Source: Pseudonocardia abyssalis | GTDB taxonomy: Bacteria; Actinomycetota; Actinomycetes; Mycobacteriales; Pseudonocardiaceae | DNA: 64,000 nucleotides | NCBI RefSeq assembly: GCF_019263705.2 | Contig: NZ_JADQDK010000001.1 | Coordinates: 3,100,001-3,164,000 of the forward strand | Reading direction: 5' to 3' | Shown: positions 491 through 8,259 of the stretch, one piece after another | How positions within the stretch are numbered: the stretch's first letter is position 1 | Layout of the letters: each line of letters starts with the position of its first letter | The notes under the pieces: generated by a model | Told to the model about the DNA's origin: nothing | What the model saw: only the letters and a program-made list of their open reading frames with translations | Database searches by the model: none | Made by a program: the position numbers and the translations under genes

Positions 491-2371
491 TCACGCCGCG
501 GCGGAGGCACCCCGTCCGGCGGGGAGGCTGCGCAGCACGGCGCGGGCGATCGCGTCGTTGTAGCGCAGGCTCTGGGCGTTCATGCCGGGCCGGGTGAACG
601 CGCCCGCCACCTTCACCGTGGTGTGCGGGCCCACCGCGAACCGTCGCGGATGCACCGCACCGTCGACGTCCACCAGCGCGCCGTCCTCGGGCCGCACCCG
701 GATCAGGCCGGTGTTGCGCAGGACGGTGCCGTCGGCGTCGATCAGGACGTCCTCGCTCACGCCGCCGCGGCGCACCAGGTCGGCGAGCAGGGGGTCGCTC
801 GTGCGCGCGGCGCTCGGGTCGGGCAGGCGCGCGTCGACGAGCGCGGTCGCGCGCACCGGTTCGGCGTCGGCGAGGGTCGCGCTGCCGGCGGCGAACGCGA
901 CCCTGCCGAGCTCATCCGGGGCGATGTCGACCCACATCCCCGCGCCCAGGAACTCGACGAACCCGGCACGCGACAACGCGAGCAGCTGACGCACCCGGAA
1001 CCCGGGCGGTCCGCTGGCCACGGAGTTGAAGAAGCTCTGCCACCACCCCATGTCCGACGCCCGCGAGCGCGCCGACAGCGATCCGGCCAGCCGCGTGGTC
1101 TCGCCGTAGACCGACAGCATCGCGACGAACGCACCGAGGTGCGCGGTGTGCCGGTCGTCGACGTGCTGGCGCAGGTCCTCCTCGATCCGCGCGCGCACCA
1201 GCGGCTGCAGGGACGCGAGATCGGGGGCGCTGAGGCCGTCGAGGGGTCGGTCGAGCGCGGCGAAGTCGATGCGGTCGACCGGGTCGGGCACGCTGTCGCG
1301 CAGCAGGGCGAGCATCGCCGGGGAGTCCCAGTCGAGCGGGGCGTAGGACTCCGCGAACTCCGCCCACGACACGGTGACCGCGTCGGGGTGGCCGAGGAAC
1401 AGCTCGTGGTACCAGCCCCAGGCGATCTCCTTGGCCATCAGCGGCCAGGCCTGCACCCGCAGGTCGACGTCACCGGCCGCGATCAGCGGGTCGACCGCGG
1501 CGGGCCCGAAGAAGCGCGGCAGCGGCGGGCGCCCGGCCCGGAGCGCGTAGTGGGTCTTGGAGTGGTAGGTCGACCCGCGCGGTGACCCGACGACCACGCG
1601 TGGCTCCTCCCCCGACGCGACATACCCGCCGTCGTCGGTGAACCTGCCGCCGCGGCCCTCGAAGAGCAGCACGACGAGGTCGACGAACGCGAGCCCCATC
1701 CCGCGCACGATCACGGTCTCACCCGGCGCGAGCACGGACAGGTCGGAGTCGGTGGTCTGCTCGGGCGGCAGGTAGCGCAGGCCGTGCTCCGCGGCGCGGG
1801 TGGCGATGGCGACCTCGTCGGCGGTCGGGGTGGCGTCGAGGTGGCCGGACGCGAGCACCACCGAGTCGACGCGCAGCGGCGGGGAGCCGTCGAGGTGCAC
1901 GATCTGCGTCTCGCCGTCCTCGGTGAGCCCGGTGGCGCGGGTGCGGTGCACGTGGGCGCGCATCCCGTCGGGCAGCCCGTCGATCACGCGCTGCAGCACC
2001 CACGCGAGGTAGGCGCTCTGCAGGCGGCGGCTGGGGAACGTGGCCGCGGTGACCGCCGCGAGCTCGTCGACCAGTTCGGGATCGACCTCGGGGCCCGTCC
2101 GGACCCAGTCCCACAGCGACGGACCGGGCACGACCGGGCCGTCGCAGACCACGGAGTCGTCGGTGAACATCGTGACGTCGGCGGCCATCGAGTTCATGGC
2201 CAGCAGCGGCGACTGCGCGTGCCGCCAGATCCGCCCGGCCCCGGCGGGGTAGGGGTCGATCAGGTGGACGTCGAGGCCCTCGGGGTGGAGTTCGGGGGCA
2301 CTCGCGGCGAGGCGCTCGAGCACCCCCGCACCACGGGGGCCGGCGCCGACGATCGCGATGGACGAGGTCAT
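491..2371 (-). CDS. FAD/NAD(P)-binding protein (NAD_binding_9 type)
   Basis: A 626-aa Rossmann-fold flavoprotein. The N-terminal dinucleotide-binding glycine motif GAGPRGAG (about residues 7-14) follows strand SIAIV, and an internal Gly-rich segment (VIVRGMGLAFVD) resembles the second nucleotide-binding region. This matches the FAD-NAD(P)-binding family (PF13454), related to lysine and ornithine N-hydroxylases but usually of unknown substrate. The ATG at 2371 is chosen over an upstream in-frame ATG because GAGGA precedes it and the Rossmann strand starts immediately. It is monocistronic, with 154 nt separating it from the upstream co-directional gene. The substrate cannot be told from sequence. 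Confidence 0.8.
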   Translation of the reverse strand: MTSSIAIVGAGPRGAGVLERLAASAPELHPEGLDVHLIDPYPAGAGRIWRHAQSPLLAMNSMAADVTMFTDDSVVCDGPVVPGPSLWDWVRTGPEVDPELVDELAAVTAATFPSRRLQSAYLAWVLQRVIDGLPDGMRAHVHRTRATGLTEDGETQIVHLDGSPPLRVDSVVLASGHLDATPTADEVAIATRAAEHGLRYLPPEQTTDSDLSVLAPGETVIVRGMGLAFVDLVVLLFEGRGGRFTDDGGYVASGEEPRVVVGSPRGSTYHSKTHYALRAGRPPLPRFFGPAAVDPLIAAGDVDLRVQAWPLMAKEIAWGWYHELFLGHPDAVTVSWAEFAESYAPLDWDSPAMLALLRDSVPDPVDRIDFAALDRPLDGLSAPDLASLQPLVRARIEEDLRQHVDDRHTAHLGAFVAMLSVYGETTRLAGSLSARSRASDMGWWQSFFNSVASGPPGFRVRQLLALSRAGFVEFLGAGMWVDIAPDELGRVAFAAGSATLADAEPVRATALVDARLPDPSAARTSDPLLADLVRRGGVSEDVLIDADGTVLRNTGLIRVRPEDGALVDVDGAVHPRRFAVGPHTTVKVAGAFTRPGMNAQSLRYNDAIARAVLRSLPAGRGASAAA

Positions 2372-2525
2372 GGGGTCCTCAGCTCGGAAGGGGGCGGACG
2401 ACGTCCGGCTCCTACAGCGCGGCACTCGTGCGGCACAGGTCGACGTGCCGCCTGCGCACGAGAGGTGTACCCATCCCCCGACCGTACGGCGGGAGGCACG
2501 GGGCGGCCAGTGGATCGGACGGCCG

Positions 2526-3254
2526 TCACGCCCCGACGGCGTCGATCAGCGCGGTCAGTGCCGCGACGACGCCGGCGTCGGGGACGTCGCGGCGGACCTC
2601 GACCATCAGCGCGCTCACCCGCGCGTCGACGCCGTACCGCGACAGGGGCACGTAGGCGCCGGAGAACGGGGTGTCCAGCGCGACGTCGGCGCCGAACGCC
2701 GTCCGCGCCGCGTCGACCAACCAGGGCGGGGTGTGGACGGGATCGGTGCCCAGGCAGATGCGTGGGCGGGGCCCGGAAGCGTGCAGCTCGTAGGGCAGGG
2801 GGGCGGTGGCGTAGGAGTGGACGTCGAGCAGCACGCAGCGCCCGGTGGCCGCGATGCGGCCGGTGACGGCCTCCTCCACCGCGGATGCCCACGGTGCGTA
2901 GAACGCGGCGAGCAGGGCCTCGCGGTGGGCCGCGTCGTCGGCCCGGATGCGCTGCCCGCGCGTGCCGTGGGTGTAGACCGCGGCCATCCCGACGGCCGCC
3001 ATCTCCTCGCGGTCGTCCGGGAAGCGCTCCACGTCGACGACGAACCGCGACACCGGGTTCACCAGCACCCACGGCGGCACCCGGGCGGCGGCGGCGGCGG
3101 ACGCGGCGACGGCGTCGGTGCGGTGGTCGGTCAGCGCGGCGATCTCGACGGCCAGAGCGGCGTCGTCGGGCAGCAGGTGGGGACGGGTCCAGGCCGGGAT
3201 CCGCGTCCCGGCGTGCGGGACGTGCAGCAGGACCGGGCTCCGGGGATCACCCAC
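2526..3254 (-). CDS. N-formylglutamate amidohydrolase family protein
   Basis: A 242-aa zinc-hydrolase-like protein of the N-formylglutamate amidohydrolase (HutG/FGase) family, which releases formate from N-formyl-glutamate or related amides. The family N-terminus VLLHVPHAG is present, with DVHSYAT and the DTPFSGAYVP segment further on. The GTG start at 3254 overlaps the end of the upstream TetR gene by 8 nt, so the two are translationally coupled as the last members of a four-gene ABC/TetR operon. No hut genes are nearby, so a role in histidine degradation is not supported. The operon instead suggests a detoxification or cell-envelope amide as substrate (inference). Confidence 0.8.
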   Translation of the reverse strand: MGDPRSPVLLHVPHAGTRIPAWTRPHLLPDDAALAVEIAALTDHRTDAVAASAAAAARVPPWVLVNPVSRFVVDVERFPDDREEMAAVGMAAVYTHGTRGQRIRADDAAHREALLAAFYAPWASAVEEAVTGRIAATGRCVLLDVHSYATAPLPYELHASGPRPRICLGTDPVHTPPWLVDAARTAFGADVALDTPFSGAYVPLSRYGVDARVSALMVEVRRDVPDAGVVAALTALIDAVGA

Positions 3255-3837
3255 GCAGCATCCGCAGCACCGCGGTCTCCAGCTCGGCCGCCGCCGCGTC
3301 GAGGTCGAACGCCGCATCGCCGAGCCATTCGGCCGCGACGGCGTCCAGCGCCCCGGAGACGATGACGGCCAGCGCGCGCGGGTCGAACGCACGGAACACC
3401 CCGGCCGCCTGCCCGTCGGCCAGGATCCCGGCGACGGCCTGCCAGCGGCTCGCCGCCGCAGGAGACCCCGGCGCCGGGGCGTCCCGGTCGGCCACCAGGC
3501 CCTCCACCAGCACCTTCATCCGCGCGGGATGGGCGCGCAGGTGCGCGAGCGAGGAGTGCAGGTAGGCCAGCAGCATCGCCTCCGGTCCGTCGGCCGCGTC
3601 GACCGCCGCACCGACGTCGGCCACGAACCCGTCGACGACGTCGGCGAACGTCGCCGCCACCACCTCGTCCTTGCTGGCGAAGTGGTAGAGCACCGACGCC
3701 TTCGAGATACCCGACCGCGCCGCGATCGCGGACAGCGACGTGCCCGCGTAGCCGCGCTCGGCGACCAGCTCGATGGTGCCGTCGATGATCTGGCGGCGGC
3801 GCGCCTGCTCGGTGAAGGTGCGGGGCCGGTCGCTCAC
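3247..3837 (-). CDS. TetR family transcriptional regulator
   Basis: A 196-aa repressor. The N-terminal helix-turn-helix covers about residues 15-60, with GYAGTSLSAIAARSGISKAS followed by LYHFASKDE, the standard TetR recognition-helix signature. An all-helical ligand and dimerisation domain follows. The GTG start lies 10 nt after the ABC permease stop, so the regulator is cotranscribed with the transporter. Two TetR-type palindromes at 5453-5488, in front of the first gene of the operon, are its probable autoregulatory sites. The inducing ligand is unknown. Confidence 0.9.
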   Translation of the reverse strand: MSDRPRTFTEQARRRQIIDGTIELVAERGYAGTSLSAIAARSGISKASVLYHFASKDEVVAATFADVVDGFVADVGAAVDAADGPEAMLLAYLHSSLAHLRAHPARMKVLVEGLVADRDAPAPGSPAAASRWQAVAGILADGQAAGVFRAFDPRALAVIVSGALDAVAAEWLGDAAFDLDAAAAELETAVLRMLRG

Positions 3838-3847
3838 GGCAGGATCT

Positions 3848-4558
3848 TCACACGTCCCGGGTGCGGAGCCGGTGCAGCGCCAGCGAGCCGAGGACCCCCA
3901 GCCAGGCCAGCAGCGACAGTGCGCCTGGCAGCGCCCCGCCCCCCTCGGCTCCCGAGATGCCGTGCAGCGCGGCGGTGGGCAGCAGCGGGACCAGTAGGTC
4001 GACACCCGGGATCCACCCCGCGACCGTCGGCGATGCGATCAGCACGAGGGCCGCGACGACCCCGCCCCCGGTGCTGCGCAGCGCCGTCGCCGCGGCCAGC
4101 GCGACCAGCGCCTGGAAGACGGGGGTGAGCGCCGACCCGGCGACCGGGCGCAGGTCGAACCCGCCGCCGAACGCGGTCCCGACCAGCACGCACAGCACCG
4201 CCGCGACGGCCGCCACCCCGGTGGCGACGACCGTCACCACCACCGCCTTGGCCACGAGCACCCGCCCGCGCCGGGGCGTCAGCAGGTGGGTCGCCTGCAC
4301 GAGCCCCGTGGCGTACTCCGACCCGGCGAACGAGGCCGCCGCGACGACCAGCACGAGCGCCGCGGCGTCGAGACCGAGCAGGGCCACGCCGAGCACTTCG
4401 GCCGGCGTCAGTTCCGCGGCGGTGGCGCCCTGCGTGACCGGGAGGCTGACGAGGAACAGCAGCGCGGTCGCGACGGCCGCGAGCACCGCCGCCCCCGCGA
4501 GGACCGGGAGCGAGCGGACGGAGGTGAACTTGATGGTCTCCGAGCGGACGGTGGTCAT
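3848..4558 (-). CDS. ABC transporter permease (ABC-2 type)
   Basis: A 236-aa integral membrane protein with about six hydrophobic segments, starting with a short cytoplasmic N-terminus (SETIKFTSVRS) typical of ABC-2/bacitracin-type permeases that drive export. It is coupled to the upstream ATPase gene by an ATGA overlap and followed after 10 nt by the TetR gene. It would form a heteromeric exporter with the ATPase. The substrate is unknown. Confidence 0.88.
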   Translation of the reverse strand: MTTVRSETIKFTSVRSLPVLAGAAVLAAVATALLFLVSLPVTQGATAAELTPAEVLGVALLGLDAAALVLVVAAASFAGSEYATGLVQATHLLTPRRGRVLVAKAVVVTVVATGVAAVAAVLCVLVGTAFGGGFDLRPVAGSALTPVFQALVALAAATALRSTGGGVVAALVLIASPTVAGWIPGVDLLVPLLPTAALHGISGAEGGGALPGALSLLAWLGVLGSLALHRLRTRDV

Positions 4559-5442
4559 GACTTCTCCGATGTGAGGGCCAGGAAGGACTCCTCCAGCCCA
4601 CTCGCCGTCACGGTGAGCGCGCCGAGGGCGATGCCGTGCCGCCGCGCGAGCCGGCCGATGTCGTCGGCGCCGACGCCGTGGCAGGCGAGCCCGTCGTCGG
4701 TGGTGGAGACCCGCGCCCCCACCCCGGTGAGGAGCGTGCCGAGCCGGTGGGTCTCCCCCGCGTCGACGGCCCGCGTGTGCACCGTGGTGGTGCGACCGCG
4801 CAGCGCGGAGACCTCGAGCGCGTCGATCAGCCGACCCTTCCCGATCACGACGACCCGCTGCGCCGTCGCCTCCATCTCGTGCAACAGGTGACTGGAGACG
4901 AACACGGTGCGGCCCTGCGCGGCGAGGTCGTGGAGCAGCGTGCGGACCCACGCGATGCCCTGGGGGTCGAGCCCGTTGAGCGGCTCGTCGAGGACGAGGA
5001 CGTCCGGGTCGCCGAGCAGCGCCCCGGCGATCCCGACGCGCTGGCGCATGCCGAGCGAGAACGTGCCGATCCGCCGCCCTGCCGCGTCCGCGACCCCGGC
5101 CAGGCCCAGCACCTCCTCCACCCGCGCCCGCGGGAGCCCGGCGGCCTCGGCCATCCAGCGCAGGTGGGCACGGGCGGTGCGGCCCGGGTGCATGCAGCGC
5201 GGGTCGAGCAGCGCCCCCACCTCCCGGGCGGGCGAGGCCAGCTCCCGGTACGGCCGGCCCGCGACCGTCGCCGTCCCGGAGGTGGGCGCGTCGAGTCCCA
5301 GCACCATCCGCATCGTCGTGGACTTCCCCGCGCCGTTGGCGCCGAGGAACCCGGTGACCGCCCCGGGTGTGACGTCGAACGTCAGGTCGTCGACGGCGGT
5401 CACCTCGCCGAAGCGCTTCGTCAGGCCGCGTACCTGGATCAT
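4555..5442 (-). CDS. ABC transporter ATP-binding protein
   Basis: A 295-aa ATPase of the drug/antibiotic-exporter subfamily. Visible motifs are Walker A GANGAGKST (34-42), signature SLGMRQR (129-135), Walker B VLVLDE (148-153) and the switch His in SSHLLHE. The roughly 80-residue C-terminal extension is usual for this subfamily. The ATG is preceded by a strong AGGAGG-type Shine-Dalgarno. It is the first gene of the operon ABC ATPase, permease, TetR, N-formylglutamate amidohydrolase. Two TetR-type palindromes flank the likely -10 element upstream. Confidence 0.92.
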   Translation of the reverse strand: MIQVRGLTKRFGEVTAVDDLTFDVTPGAVTGFLGANGAGKSTTMRMVLGLDAPTSGTATVAGRPYRELASPAREVGALLDPRCMHPGRTARAHLRWMAEAAGLPRARVEEVLGLAGVADAAGRRIGTFSLGMRQRVGIAGALLGDPDVLVLDEPLNGLDPQGIAWVRTLLHDLAAQGRTVFVSSHLLHEMEATAQRVVVIGKGRLIDALEVSALRGRTTTVHTRAVDAGETHRLGTLLTGVGARVSTTDDGLACHGVGADDIGRLARRHGIALGALTVTASGLEESFLALTSEKS

Positions 5443-5452
5443 CTCTCCTCCT

Positions 5453-5488
5453 CTGACCGATCGGTAGCTTACCTGACCGAGCGGTCAG
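5453..5488 (-). promoter_or_regulatory. Tandem TetR-type operators over the ABC operon promoter
   Basis: ACCGATCGGT (5456-5465) is a perfect palindrome. CTGACCG-AG-CGGTCAG (5473-5488) has perfect 7-nt arms. They share the half-site CTGACCG and are centred about 20 bp apart. A TAAGCT sequence (complement of 5466-5471), a good -10 for the minus-strand operon, lies between them, so bound repressor would block it. Confidence 0.65.
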
Positions 5489-5536
5489 ATGACTGGTCGG
5501 TTGACGCTCCCCGGTCCCGGTGCTGGAGTGGAGTGC

Positions 5537-5620
5537 ATGTCCGTCCGGGTCCCGTTGGTGAGCCGACGGCACGTCGACCTCGGTCGCGTGTGGTCGGCGG
5601 GGTGTCCGGGCCGCCGCTGA
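5537..5620 (+). CDS. Putative sulfur-type leader peptide upstream of SsuD-like gene (27 aa)
   Basis: A tiny ORF with a GGAG Shine-Dalgarno. Its centre reads SRRHVDLGRVWSAGC, matching the pattern R-R-x-H-V-D-L-x-R-V-x-S-x-x-C seen in short actinobacterial leader peptides in front of sulfur-metabolism genes (recalled from annotated Streptomyces genomes). The single Cys is codon 23 of 27. It ends 33 nt before the monooxygenase start. A second peptide of the same pattern precedes the OsmC gene at 6834. It probably acts in cis by ribosome stalling or attenuation on Cys or tRNA-Cys supply (inference). Confidence 0.6.
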   Translation: MSVRVPLVSRRHVDLGRVWSAGCPGRR

Positions 5621-5653
5621 CCGGCCGCCCACCCCCGCCACGGAAGGACCCCC

Positions 5654-6763
5654 ATGCCCGTCGAGTTCCTCGGCATCGGCGCCACCCACAACGGCTCCGA
5701 GACCGACGTCCGCACCGGACCCGCTTTCGACCGCGACTACACGCTCGCCCTCGCCAGGGCGCACGAGGACACCGGCTGGGACCGTGTCCTCACCGCCTAC
5801 GGCTCGGGCAGCCCCGATCCCGCACAGGCCGCCGCCCTGATCGCGTGCAACACCGACCGGCTGCAGTTGCTGCTCGCCCACCGCCCCAACGTCTCCCACC
5901 CGACGTTCGCGGCGAAGACGGTGGCCACGCTCGACCAGATCAGCGGCGGCCGGCTCACGCTGCACGTGATCACCGGCGGCAACGACCACGAGCAGCAGCG
6001 CGAGGGCGACACCCTGCCCAAGGACCAGCGCTACGCCCGCACCCGCGAGGCCATCCAGATCTACAAGAAGGCGTGGACTCAGCGCGAGCCGTTCGACTTC
6101 CACGGCGAGCACTACTCCTTCGACGACTTCGTGCTCGACGTCGAGCCGTTCCAGCAGCCGCGGCCGCAGATCTCGTTCGGCGGGTCGTCGGCCGCGGCCT
6201 ACCGGGTGGGCGCGGAGGAGGCCGACGTCTACGCGCTGTGGGGCGAGCCGCTGGCCGGCACCGCGGAGCAGATCGCGACGATCACCGACCTCGCCCGCGC
6301 CGCGGGCCGGGAGGCGCCGCGGTTCCAGGTGGCGTTCCGCCCGATCCTCGGCCGCACCGAGGAGCAGGCGTGGGAGAAGGCGTACGCCACCGTCGCCCGG
6401 ATCCAGGACCGGACGCAGGGCGGCACGTCGGCGCTCACCCGCCGCCACAAGCTCACCGACCCGGAGAACGCGGGCTCGCAGCGGCTGCTCGCCGTCGCCG
6501 CGCAGGGCGAGCGGCACGACCGGGCCCTGTGGACGGTCACCGCGCAGGCGACGGGCGGGGCCGGGAACTCCACGGCGCTCGTCGGCACTCCGGAGACGGT
6601 CGCCGCGGCCCTGCTGGACTACTACGACCTGGGCGTCCGCATCCTCTCCGCACGGGGCTACGACCTGCTGGAGGACGCGAAGGAGTTCGGCCGCGAGGTC
6701 ATCCCGCTGGTCCGCGCGGAGGTCGCGCGTCGGGACGCGCAGCTTTCGGCCGTGCCCGCCTGA
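5654..6763 (+). CDS. LLM-class flavin-dependent monooxygenase (alkanesulfonate monooxygenase-like)
   Basis: A 369-aa TIM-barrel enzyme of the bacterial luciferase-like family, closest in pattern to FMNH2-dependent alkanesulfonate monooxygenase (SsuD), which frees sulfite from organosulfonates. Typical segments are LARAHEDTGWDRVLTAYGSGSPDP, the HPTFAAKTVATLDQISGGR helix and HVITGGND. An AAGGA Shine-Dalgarno precedes the ATG. The sulfur-type leader peptide just upstream supports a role in sulfur scavenging. No ssuABC transporter or flavin reductase is adjacent, so electrons must come from elsewhere. Confidence 0.85.
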   Translation: MPVEFLGIGATHNGSETDVRTGPAFDRDYTLALARAHEDTGWDRVLTAYGSGSPDPAQAAALIACNTDRLQLLLAHRPNVSHPTFAAKTVATLDQISGGRLTLHVITGGNDHEQQREGDTLPKDQRYARTREAIQIYKKAWTQREPFDFHGEHYSFDDFVLDVEPFQQPRPQISFGGSSAAAYRVGAEEADVYALWGEPLAGTAEQIATITDLARAAGREAPRFQVAFRPILGRTEEQAWEKAYATVARIQDRTQGGTSALTRRHKLTDPENAGSQRLLAVAAQGERHDRALWTVTAQATGGAGNSTALVGTPETVAAALLDYYDLGVRILSARGYDLLEDAKEFGREVIPLVRAEVARRDAQLSAVPA

Positions 6764-6777
6764 CGGTTCACCGGACG

Positions 6778-6803
6778 TGCGCCATCCCATCGCGTGTGGC
6801 GCA
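6778..6803. terminator. Hairpin after the monooxygenase gene
   Basis: TGCGCCA (6778-6784) pairs perfectly with TGGCGCA (6797-6803) around a 12-nt loop, 15 nt after the stop codon and 31 nt before the next leader peptide. There is no U-tract. It could be a terminator or a regulator site for the next unit. Confidence 0.4.
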
Positions 6804-6833
6804 TCTCCGGTGGACCCGGTTGACTGTGCAACC

Positions 6834-6908
6834 GTGACGATCGATCCGGGTCTCGTGCGCCGCCTGCACGTCGACCTGATGCGCCTGGGTTCCTCCAGCT
6901 GTCGCTGA
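6834..6908 (+). CDS. Putative sulfur-type leader peptide upstream of OsmC gene (24 aa)
   Basis: A GTG-started ORF whose second half reads VRRLHVDLMRLGSSSCR before the stop, the same R-x-H-V-D-L-x-R...C pattern as the peptide at 5537. Cys is the second-to-last residue. No Shine-Dalgarno is visible, so translation may be leaderless. It ends 46 nt before the OsmC start. Two members of one leader family in 1.4 kb, each before a sulfur-related enzyme, argue against chance. Confidence 0.55.
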   Translation: MTIDPGLVRRLHVDLMRLGSSSCR

Positions 6909-6954
6909 TCCGGTCCGTCCCTCCCCTCATTCGCACCACCCCTGGAGCACAGCC

Positions 6955-7410
6955 ATGCCTCTCGTCAACTTCGCCGTGAGCGGTGCCGGTACCGGCGTCG
7001 CGCAGACCGTCTCCGTCAAGGGCGCCGACTACGTCATCGAGACCGACGCCTACGAGGCGTTCGGCGGGCAGGACGCCCACCCGAGCCCGCTGGCCTACAC
7101 CCTCGCCTCGCTCAGCTCGTGCAACCAGGTCACCTCGTCGATCGTGGCCCAGGAGCTCGGCATCACGATCGAGGCCGTCAGGTTCGACGTCTCGTCCGAC
7201 TTCGACCCCACCGTCATGACCACGGGCAAGGGCACCGCGGACGCCACGTTCCAGAACCTGGTCATCACCGCGGAGATCACCACCGACGCGAGCGCCGACC
7301 AGTTCGACACGCTGCGCGACGAGACCGCCCGCCGCTGCCCGGTCAGCGTGCTGTTCGCCCGCGCCGGTGTGAAGATCACCAACGACTGGACGCAGGTCAA
7401 GCCCGCCTGA
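6955..7410 (+). CDS. OsmC family protein
   Basis: A 151-aa OsmC/Ohr-superfamily protein, a thiol-dependent peroxidase fold. The two reactive cysteines sit in the expected contexts, SLSSCNQVTSS (C56) and ARRCPVSVLF (C128). The ATG follows a GGAG Shine-Dalgarno. Family members reduce organic hydroperoxides or, in some subfamilies, handle activated sulfur species. The sulfur-type leader peptide immediately upstream favours a link to cysteine or sulfur status over a general peroxide response (inference). Confidence 0.85.
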   Translation: MPLVNFAVSGAGTGVAQTVSVKGADYVIETDAYEAFGGQDAHPSPLAYTLASLSSCNQVTSSIVAQELGITIEAVRFDVSSDFDPTVMTTGKGTADATFQNLVITAEITTDASADQFDTLRDETARRCPVSVLFARAGVKITNDWTQVKPA

Positions 7411-7452
7411 TGTCTTACCCCTGAGGTCATCGAACCGCGTCGCGGTGGTCGC

Positions 7453-7458
7453 TAGCGT
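7453..7458 (+). promoter_or_regulatory. -10 element for a leaderless XRE transcript
   Basis: TAGCGT fits the actinobacterial TAnnnT -10 and ends 6 nt before the ATG at 7465, so transcription would begin at or next to the start codon. No Shine-Dalgarno is present. Confidence 0.45.
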
Positions 7459-7464
7459 CGGCCC

Positions 7465-8259
7465 ATGACCACCGCGACCACCTCGGCGTCGGCCTTCGGC
7501 TCCCTGCTCCGCGACTGGCGGCGCCGCCGTCGGCTGACCCAGCTCGACCTCGGCCTCGCCGCCGAGGTCTCCGCACGGCACCTCAGCTTCCTGGAGACCG
7601 GCCGGTCGAAGCCGAGCCGGGAGATGGTCCTGCACCTGTCGGAGGAGCTGGACGTGCCGCTGCGCGCCCGCAACGAGCTGATGACGGCCGCCGGCTACGC
7701 CCCGGCCTACACCCACCACGGCCTCGACGACGCCGAGCTGACCGAGGTCCGCGCGTCACTGCAGCGGGTGCTCGACGGGCACACGCCCTACCCCGCCGTC
7801 CTCGTCGACGGCATGTGGAACCTGTTGGCCGCCAACGTCTCCGTCGGCGTGCTCACCGAGCTGGTCGACCCGGACCTGCTCGCGGGGCCGGTCAACATCC
7901 TGCGGCTCGCCCTGCACCCGCGCGGGCTCGCACCGCACGTCGTCGACCTGCCGGAGTACGCGGCACACCTGGTCTCGCGGGTGCGGCGACAGTCGGAGCG
8001 GTCGGCGACGACGGGCCTGCGGGCGATCCTCGGCGAGGCCGTGGAGTTCTGCCGGGTCCAGGGCCTCGACCCGGCGGCCCAGCCCCGCGACCGGATCGTG
8101 CTGCCGCTGCGGCTGCGCCATCCCGACCAGGAGCTGACGTTCTTCTCCACCGTCGCCGTGCTCGGCGCCCCGCTCGACGTCACCCTCGACGAGGTCTGCA
8201 TCGAGTCGTTCTTCCCCGCCGACGCCGCGACCGCCGAGTATCTGCGGCAGCGCGCGTAA
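7465..8259 (+). CDS. XRE family regulator with MmyB-like ligand-binding domain
   Basis: A 264-aa regulator. The N-terminal HTH_XRE covers about residues 10-65 (LTQLDLGLAAEVSARHLSFLETGRSKPSREM). The C-terminal MmyB-like PAS domain (about 95-260) contains the typical VDGMWNLLAANVS and LRHPDQELTFFSTVAVLGAPLDVTLDEV segments. This family is abundant in actinomycetes, commonly sits beside an oxidoreductase gene and may sense a fatty-acid-like ligand. The nearest candidate targets are the OsmC gene upstream and the ABC transporter downstream. Confidence 0.9.
   Translation: MTTATTSASAFGSLLRDWRRRRRLTQLDLGLAAEVSARHLSFLETGRSKPSREMVLHLSEELDVPLRARNELMTAAGYAPAYTHHGLDDAELTEVRASLQRVLDGHTPYPAVLVDGMWNLLAANVSVGVLTELVDPDLLAGPVNILRLALHPRGLAPHVVDLPEYAAHLVSRVRRQSERSATTGLRAILGEAVEFCRVQGLDPAAQPRDRIVLPLRLRHPDQELTFFSTVAVLGAPLDVTLDEVCIESFFPADAATAEYLRQRA

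Follow-up and report, generated by a model that had tools for sequence, protein, structure and literature searches.

Putative leader peptides with a conserved HVDL core and a preferred codon 12 upstream of sulfur-linked genes in Pseudonocardia

Leader peptides and target genes of the window

The window, a 64,000 nucleotide stretch of the Pseudonocardia abyssalis genome, contains three short ORFs whose products share a peptide core centred on HVDL, each followed on its own strand by a longer gene. Codons of the leaders are numbered with the H of HVDL as codon 1. The features are as follows (coordinates within the window):

491..2371, minus strand: target 3, FAD/NAD(P)-binding protein (PF13454)
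2412..2474, minus strand: leader peptide 3, 20 aa, ATG start, MGTPLVRRRHVDLCRTSAAL followed by the stop codon
2414-2412, minus strand: codon 12 of leader 3, the stop codon UAG
2481..2486, minus strand: TACGGT, a -10-like sequence 6 nt before the ATG of leader 3
5501..5529, plus strand: predicted promoter of leader 1, TTGACG (5501-5506), 17-nt spacer and TGGAGT (5524-5529), 7 nt to the ATG
5537..5620, plus strand: leader peptide 1, 27 aa, ATG start, MSVRVPLVSRRHVDLGRVWSAGCPGRR
5603-5605, plus strand: codon 12 of leader 1, UGU
5654..6763, plus strand: target 1, LLM-class (SsuD-like) monooxygenase (PF00296)
6820..6825, plus strand: TTGACT, a possible off-consensus -10 element suggested by relatives
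6834..6908, plus strand: leader peptide 2, 24 aa, GTG start, VTIDPGLVRRLHVDLMRLGSSSCR
6900-6902, plus strand: codon 12 of leader 2, UGU
6955..7410, plus strand: target 2, OsmC-family protein (PF02566, above cut-off)

Three matches to R-x-H[VIL]D[LF]-x-R are present in the window, whereas 200 dinucleotide shuffles of its sequence contain 0.005 on average. Two of these ORFs, of 27 and 24 aa, had been described in an earlier note made from the sequence alone, and both are found where it placed them, with a conserved core before sulfur-linked genes; the pair is joined by a third leader at 2412-2474 on the minus strand, which that note had missed. The core RRxHVDL that it gave is real in its HVDL part, but the register of RRx differs between the two peptides (SRRHVDL vs RRLHVDL). 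Aligned on HVDL, leaders 1 and 2 have L-5, V-4, R-2, H1, V2, D3, L4, R6, S9 and C12 in common, which corrects the core to L-V-x-R-x-H-V-D-L-x-R-x-x-S-x-x-C. The gap between leader end and target is 33 nt for leader 1, 46 nt for leader 2 and 40 nt for leader 3.

The best NCBIfam models for target 1 are those of alkanesulfonate monooxygenase, with 219 and 215 bits that lie below the respective cut-offs of 510 and 518, and target 2 scores 66.4 bits against the NCBIfam model OsmC_like_Se, under its cut-off of 95. An in-frame TGA in the OsmC matches of two relatives (L018 and L022) raised the question of selenocysteine, which was rejected; the TGA of L018 is an ordinary C-terminal stop codon. Two putative regulators are encoded nearby, a TetR-like ORF named from its sequence (3247-4005, minus strand) and, directly after osmC, a MmyB-like HTH regulator (PF17765, 7465-8259) before which no leader was noticed.

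Start signals

The -35/-10 spacing of the predicted leader 1 promoter is also visible in an alignment of relatives. The earlier note had described one of its two ORFs as led by a Shine-Dalgarno (SD) sequence and the other as leaderless, a distinction that is not supported, since the supposed SD, GGAGTGGAG, sits at the expected -10 position and is probably the -10 region; from their promoter-like spacing both leaders look leaderless. Inspection by eye finds TGGAGT and variants of it 6-7 nt before the start of most ssu leaders, and TTGACT or TTCACT 6-8 nt before the GTG start of the osm leaders in most relatives. Across 261 leaders with 557 start candidates, TANNNT is located 12 or 13 nt before an in-frame ATG or GTG 80 times, compared to no more than 10 times at each of the remaining offsets from 7 to 29. 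At offsets 11-14 it is present in 84 of the 261 leaders, including all 20 of the FAD type, none of the nine osm leaders and none of the 18 ssu leaders; the hexamers of the osm and ssu leaders described above deviate from the consensus but have a similar spacing. SD-like tetramers are slightly enriched at offset 12 (25 vs about 7 to 14 elsewhere), so that some of the leaders may have an SD.

Just upstream of the leader 1 promoter, in the gap to a divergent ABC transporter gene, lie inverted repeats (5449-5492) with 17-nt arms that are 88% complementary; their inner part, CTGACCG/CGGTCAG, is perfect over 7 nt and operator-like.

Relation to known leader peptides

The leaders are of a known kind, the putative leader peptides of actinobacteria, and are related to the cysteine-responsive leaderless uORFs of mycobacteria. 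As the earlier note states, similar peptides are annotated as putative leader peptides in actinomycetes, the NCBIfam model being NF042934 (cis_reg_atten, cut-off 27 bits). As isolated peptides leader 2 scores 27.5 and leader 1 scores 24.3 bits; in a search of the genome leader 3 exceeds the cut-off with 30.8 bits and is the second-best match of the whole genome, with leaders 1 and 2 below it at 22.3 and 22.7 bits. Leaders 1 and 2 miss the cut-off of 45 bits of NF042936, the Ms4527A-family Cys-rich leader, with 35.9 and 16.4 bits. Both models share the core of the window leaders at the same position, but they stop at or just after the Cys, whose codon they leave unspecified, and this Cys is missing from those leaders that have a stop codon at codon 12.

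Leaderless polycysteine uORFs of mycobacteria reportedly act as cysteine-responsive attenuators. Like these, leaders 1 and 2 are short ORFs directly before a sulfur- or cysteine-linked gene, and they may likewise be leaderless; the mycobacterial leaders fetched for comparison have R-x-x-VDL-C-R in common. The mycobacterial leaders contain runs of Cys codons, whereas leaders 1 and 2 have a single Cys after the core, encoded by UGU at codon 12, and leader 3 has none there and one at position 5; adjacent Cys codons occur in 13 of the 187 leaders collected below. In its available text, Shell 2015 (PMC4633059) proposes cysteine-rich leaderless uORFs before cysA2 and other genes and discusses translational coupling by leaderless uORFs. 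A further Cys-codon uORF and attenuator candidate is uORFC-8-2 upstream of cysS in Rhodobacterales (PMC8632094), which differs in having two tandem Cys codons, a dominance of UGC and an intrinsic terminator; the available part of that paper mentions no HVDL-type peptide.

The working principle may be compared, with no claim of homology, to that of the ligand-sensing arrest peptides TnaC and SpeFL, where according to the available text of PMC8429421 a conserved nascent peptide in the exit tunnel slows the A-site step, the A-site codon of TnaC being a stop codon. Asp16 of TnaC is located 8 residues before the last residue, Pro24, and Asp3 of the leaders 8 residues before residue 11. Unlike TnaC and SpeFL, most leaders of the present family have a sense codon in the corresponding A site. 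As a sequence pattern, a conserved peptide at a fixed distance from a putative arrest codon is found in 179 of 187 leaders, which have UGU, UGC or a stop at codon 12.

Distribution

A search upstream of orthologues in the genus, own genome included, found leaders at most loci of all three target genes, with several copies per genome, in agreement with the earlier note's picture of conserved leaders before sulfur-linked genes. At 19 of 20 osmC loci an HxDL-core leader is present in the 450 nt upstream, L029 being the one without. Among the ssuD-like loci (83-100% identity) 23 of 28 have a leader, some with HVDF, YLDL or WLDL cores; the five without (L049, L052, L053, L055 and L056) are joined by the distant paralogues L059 and L060. 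The FAD-protein gene is preceded by a leader at 23 of 30 loci, comprising 21 with a clean core, L109 (HVDN) and L112. Several genomes thus lack the leader before the same ssuD-like or FAD-protein gene.

All 60 genomes of the genus that were searched, own included, contain a NF042934 match (E<=0.001). Across the phylum a match (E<=1e-4) was found in at least 16 of 296 genomes, all of the same class as P. abyssalis, a lower bound since the scoring in many genomes covered a fraction of the candidates. Elsewhere in the P. abyssalis genome leaders are located before a sulfite/nitrite reductase gene (L001), a DUF4395 and rhodanese pair (L003), a second LLM monooxygenase (L005) and an acyl-CoA-dehydrogenase-like gene (L008). 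The latter two, at 3721627 and 3722910, form a pair 1.28 kb apart in the same layout as leaders 1 and 2. Three other profile matches of this genome (L004, L009 and L010) were discarded as no convincing leader is present at these loci.

Of 200 genomes of the order, with that of P. abyssalis counted among them, 11 contain an osmC gene at E<=1e-30. Outside the genus, eight of nine osmC loci have no leader within 450 nt and one does (L329); a general osmC-leader link was therefore dropped, and the link is mostly a trait of the genus. In five relatives (L064, L067, L151, L207 and L209) two leaders occur on opposite strands of one short locus before divergent genes. Further targets, named from the appearance of their sequences (L127, L157, L173, L179, L190 and L205), resemble a cystine/dicarboxylate symporter, a CysO-like sulfur carrier, an ABC substrate-binding protein, an O-acetylhomoserine sulfhydrylase and an ABC permease.

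Selection on the peptide

For codons 1-6, dN/dS (NG86) is 0.16 in the ssu leaders (21 sequences), 0.46 in osm (9), 0.09 in FAD (27) and 0.13 in sir (23), and for codons 7-11 the values are 0.23, 1.34, 0.33 and 0.34, respectively. Shifting the frame in either direction gives 1.2 to 3.7 for codons -7 to 11. Part of the core is imposed by the regular expression used to collect the leaders, which makes codons 7-11 and the contrast between frames the safer evidence. The comparison of synonymous and non-synonymous change that the earlier note had asked for thus reveals selection at the protein level in the leader frame, with the exception of codons 7-11 of the osmC leaders, where no constraint was detected in nine sequences. 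Synonymous variety is present within the core: in 126 leaders (136 candidates minus 10 matches in other frames, for example in sulfurtransferase genes) Arg -2 is encoded by CGC 61, CGT 26, CGG 21, CGA 14 and AGG 4 times, and Asp3 by GAC 101 and GAT 25 times.

Codon 12

In the set of 187 leaders, codon 12 reads UGU 144 times, UGC 4 times, UGA 19 times and UAG 12 times (31 stops); the other 8 include one leader that ends at codon 11. These leaders were collected partly via orthologues and partly by an HMM that favours Cys at position 12, though not its codon. With the mycobacterial family left out, Cys12 is encoded by UGU 141 and UGC 3 times as opposed to UGU 11 and UGC 109 times for Cys at all other positions; background usage in the 32 long ORFs of the window is UGU 16 and UGC 125. 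Bacteria generally contain a single tRNA-Cys(GCA), which decodes UGU by wobble.

A separate scan of GTDB genome contigs employed a degenerate pattern that ends at codon 6 and returned at least 120 loci. The matches listed number 121 and include 90 short ORFs with a start codon. Of these ORFs 86 are new, and their codon 12 is UGU in 75, UGC in 4 and another codon in 7, a count that still includes L222, L236, L252 and L219; among the same listed matches none of the 86 has a stop at codon 12, and none of 29 long ORFs has a Cys there. Cys at other positions of the listed leaders is encoded by UGC 38 and UGU 30 times, a high share of UGU that arises because the set holds mycobacterial and rhodococcal leaders with Cys runs. 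For a cluster analysis, 4 duplicates were removed from the 90 short ORFs together with the four loci named above, of which three are not leader-like and one is cut by the locus end. In clusters formed at 80% identity UGU occupies codon 12 in 65 of 74, and among GC-rich cluster representatives Cys12 is UGU 57 and UGC 2 times, with UGU 13 and UGC 22 for other Cys. The third base is T in 57 of 62 at codon 12, compared to 3 to 8 (of 47 to 66) at codons 9, 10, 11, 13 and 14.

Where Cys12 is missing, 31 of 42 leaders end exactly at codon 12; leaders with Cys12 end anywhere from codon 13 to 21. The stop is found in 24 of 27 leaders of the FAD gene, before another LLM gene (L153-L155), before one ssuD-like gene (L058) and before Ecm4-like genes of a Streptomyces-like genus (L124, L151 and L152), both of the last names being those of this analysis. 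As UAG and UGA both occur within the FAD group and within the Ecm4-like group, the stop itself is conserved. The earlier note's ribosome stalling at the Cys codons is accordingly incomplete, because leader 3 and 30 other leaders have a stop at this position. Among the 31 stop-12 leaders 24 have Cys5 and six have no Cys after the core, and the same is true of two further leaders without a stop at codon 12 (both L057), which brings the leaders with no Cys after the core to 8 of 187. Other Ecm4-like leaders are loose at codon 12, with GGG, AGG or UGC. The distance from the core to codon 12 is nearly constant and that from leader stop to target start varies from 25 to 135 nt, a combination that points to the exit tunnel and not to mRNA geometry.

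A fixed putative pause position at codon 12 seems to be new within the known leader type. In the literature on cysteine leader peptides nothing was found on codon 12 or a UGU bias in this family, and neither 'HVDL' together with 'leader peptide' nor 'Ms4527A' was found in the literature searched, coverage in both cases being that of papers outside subscription.

RNA pairing with the target

Folding was predicted for 112 of the 187 leader-target pairs, which passed filters on target length, SD score, RNA length and duplicates. Predicted access to the target SD is 0.307 as opposed to 0.337 with shuffled leaders (p=0.019, 112 pairs), and masking 30 nt around codon 12 raises it by 0.063 compared to 0.016 in shuffles (p=0.001, 112 pairs). 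For the window the corresponding values are +0.19 vs 0.06 for leader 1, +0.04 vs 0.04 for leader 2 and +0.06 vs 0.04 for leader 3. The folding predictions therefore weakly favour translational attenuation by SD access, not at every locus and with a small effect at the level of the group. Predicted SD access does not respond to the replacement of UGU by UGC (80 leaders, p=0.44), so RNA pairing offers no explanation for UGU. With this result, and no Rfam match at E<=1 in window positions 1800-7500, RNA structure was rejected as the main cause of UGU or of the conserved core.

Proposed mechanism and alternatives

It is proposed, with slightly more confidence than doubt, that the leaders regulate sulfur-acquisition and thiol-linked genes in cis, as leaderless leader-peptide attenuators; the nascent RR-HVDL-x-R peptide would act together with a slow codon 12 to pause the ribosome. 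The ribosome would start at the 5' end of the mRNA, synthesise the L-[VT]-x-R-x-H-V-D-L-x-R nascent peptide and pause with codon 12 in the A site, at which point R6 to L-5 would lie about 5 to 15 residues behind the P-site residue. Codon 12 would be kinetically slow, being the wobble-decoded and rare Cys codon UGU in most leaders and a stop codon in a minority that includes leader 3. A shortage of Cys-tRNA would prolong the pause in the UGU type; in the stop type the delay would come from slow termination. Once parked, the ribosome would alter downstream expression, most likely by blocking the pairing of leader RNA with the ribosome-binding site of the target, or alternatively through an effect on premature termination. 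The R-HVDL core may itself act as an arrest motif, for which the fixed spacing to codon 12 and the leaders that keep the core without a Cys provide indirect support. Several observations count against this explanation: 8 of 187 leaders follow neither codon 12 rule and the Ecm4-like leaders are loose there, codons 7-11 of osmC leaders are unconstrained, the effect on predicted SD access is small, being absent for leader 2 and nearly so for leader 3, Cys5 is present in 24 of 31 stop-12 leaders, no stop-12 leader is found among the 86 listed in the scan, and in several genomes the same gene is not preceded by a leader.

Plain cysteine-starvation attenuation is a possible, if rather unlikely, explanation. 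The ribosome would stall at a single Cys codon when Cys-tRNA is low, UGU being slow and the core uninvolved, and the stop-12 leaders would sense via Cys5 or Cys8 or represent decay. Cys occupies codon 12 in 148 of 187 leaders, the stop-12 leaders with Cys5 agree with such sensing, and mycobacterial relatives have Cys runs and are reportedly cysteine-responsive attenuators; however, this leaves the conservation of the core at the protein level and its fixed distance to codon 12 unexplained, and Cys is absent after the core from eight leaders, of which six stop at codon 12. In another reading the leader senses nothing and merely delivers leaderless-initiating ribosomes to the target by translational coupling or reinitiation, as is discussed for leaderless uORFs in the available text of Shell 2015 (PMC4633059). 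The leaderless-type start signals and the short gaps to some targets (25 to 45 nt, ssuD-like gene) are compatible with this, but other gaps reach 135 nt and coupling needs neither a conserved peptide nor a fixed codon 12, which makes it very improbable.

That the conserved core is an RNA element, either a pairing partner or a protein-binding site, is hardly credible: leader RNA is predicted to pair with the target SD to a slightly greater extent than shuffled sequences, yet synonymous change is frequent at Arg -2 and Asp3, dN/dS is low in the leader frame only, and Rfam yields no match in the region searched. Least probable of all is that the peptides are small proteins acting in trans. Conservation of amino acids and several copies per genome would suit such a role, but a finished peptide gives no reason for the choice of UGU over UGC or for a stop at one position, each copy precedes a gene of its own, and beyond the core the termini vary from one target group to another.

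The preferred reading of nascent-chain attenuators can be extended, tentatively, to a portable arrest module of actinomycetes, L-x-x-R-x-H-V-D-L-x-R, which would function as part of the nascent chain while codon 12 occupies the A site. It would cause elongation arrest at UGU or termination arrest at a stop codon, at many sulfur loci it would respond either to the supply of cysteine or to a sulfur metabolite present in the exit tunnel, and it would remain functional in leaders devoid of cysteine.

Biological significance

If the proposed mechanism is true, a loosely annotated family of putative leader peptides would become a defined sensor with a fixed pause codon, and there would be an arrest peptide in which one register accepts sense and stop codons alike. 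The use of the synonymous choice between UGU and UGC as a sensor would parallel serine-codon sensing in sinR, where, as far as the available text of PMC3862929 describes it, synonymous serine codons respond differently to starvation, with the difference that sensing in sinR takes place inside a normal gene and without a leader peptide. It would also link osmC, the FAD/NAD(P)-binding protein and the Ecm4-like genes, as named in this analysis, to the sulfur regulon of actinomycetes.
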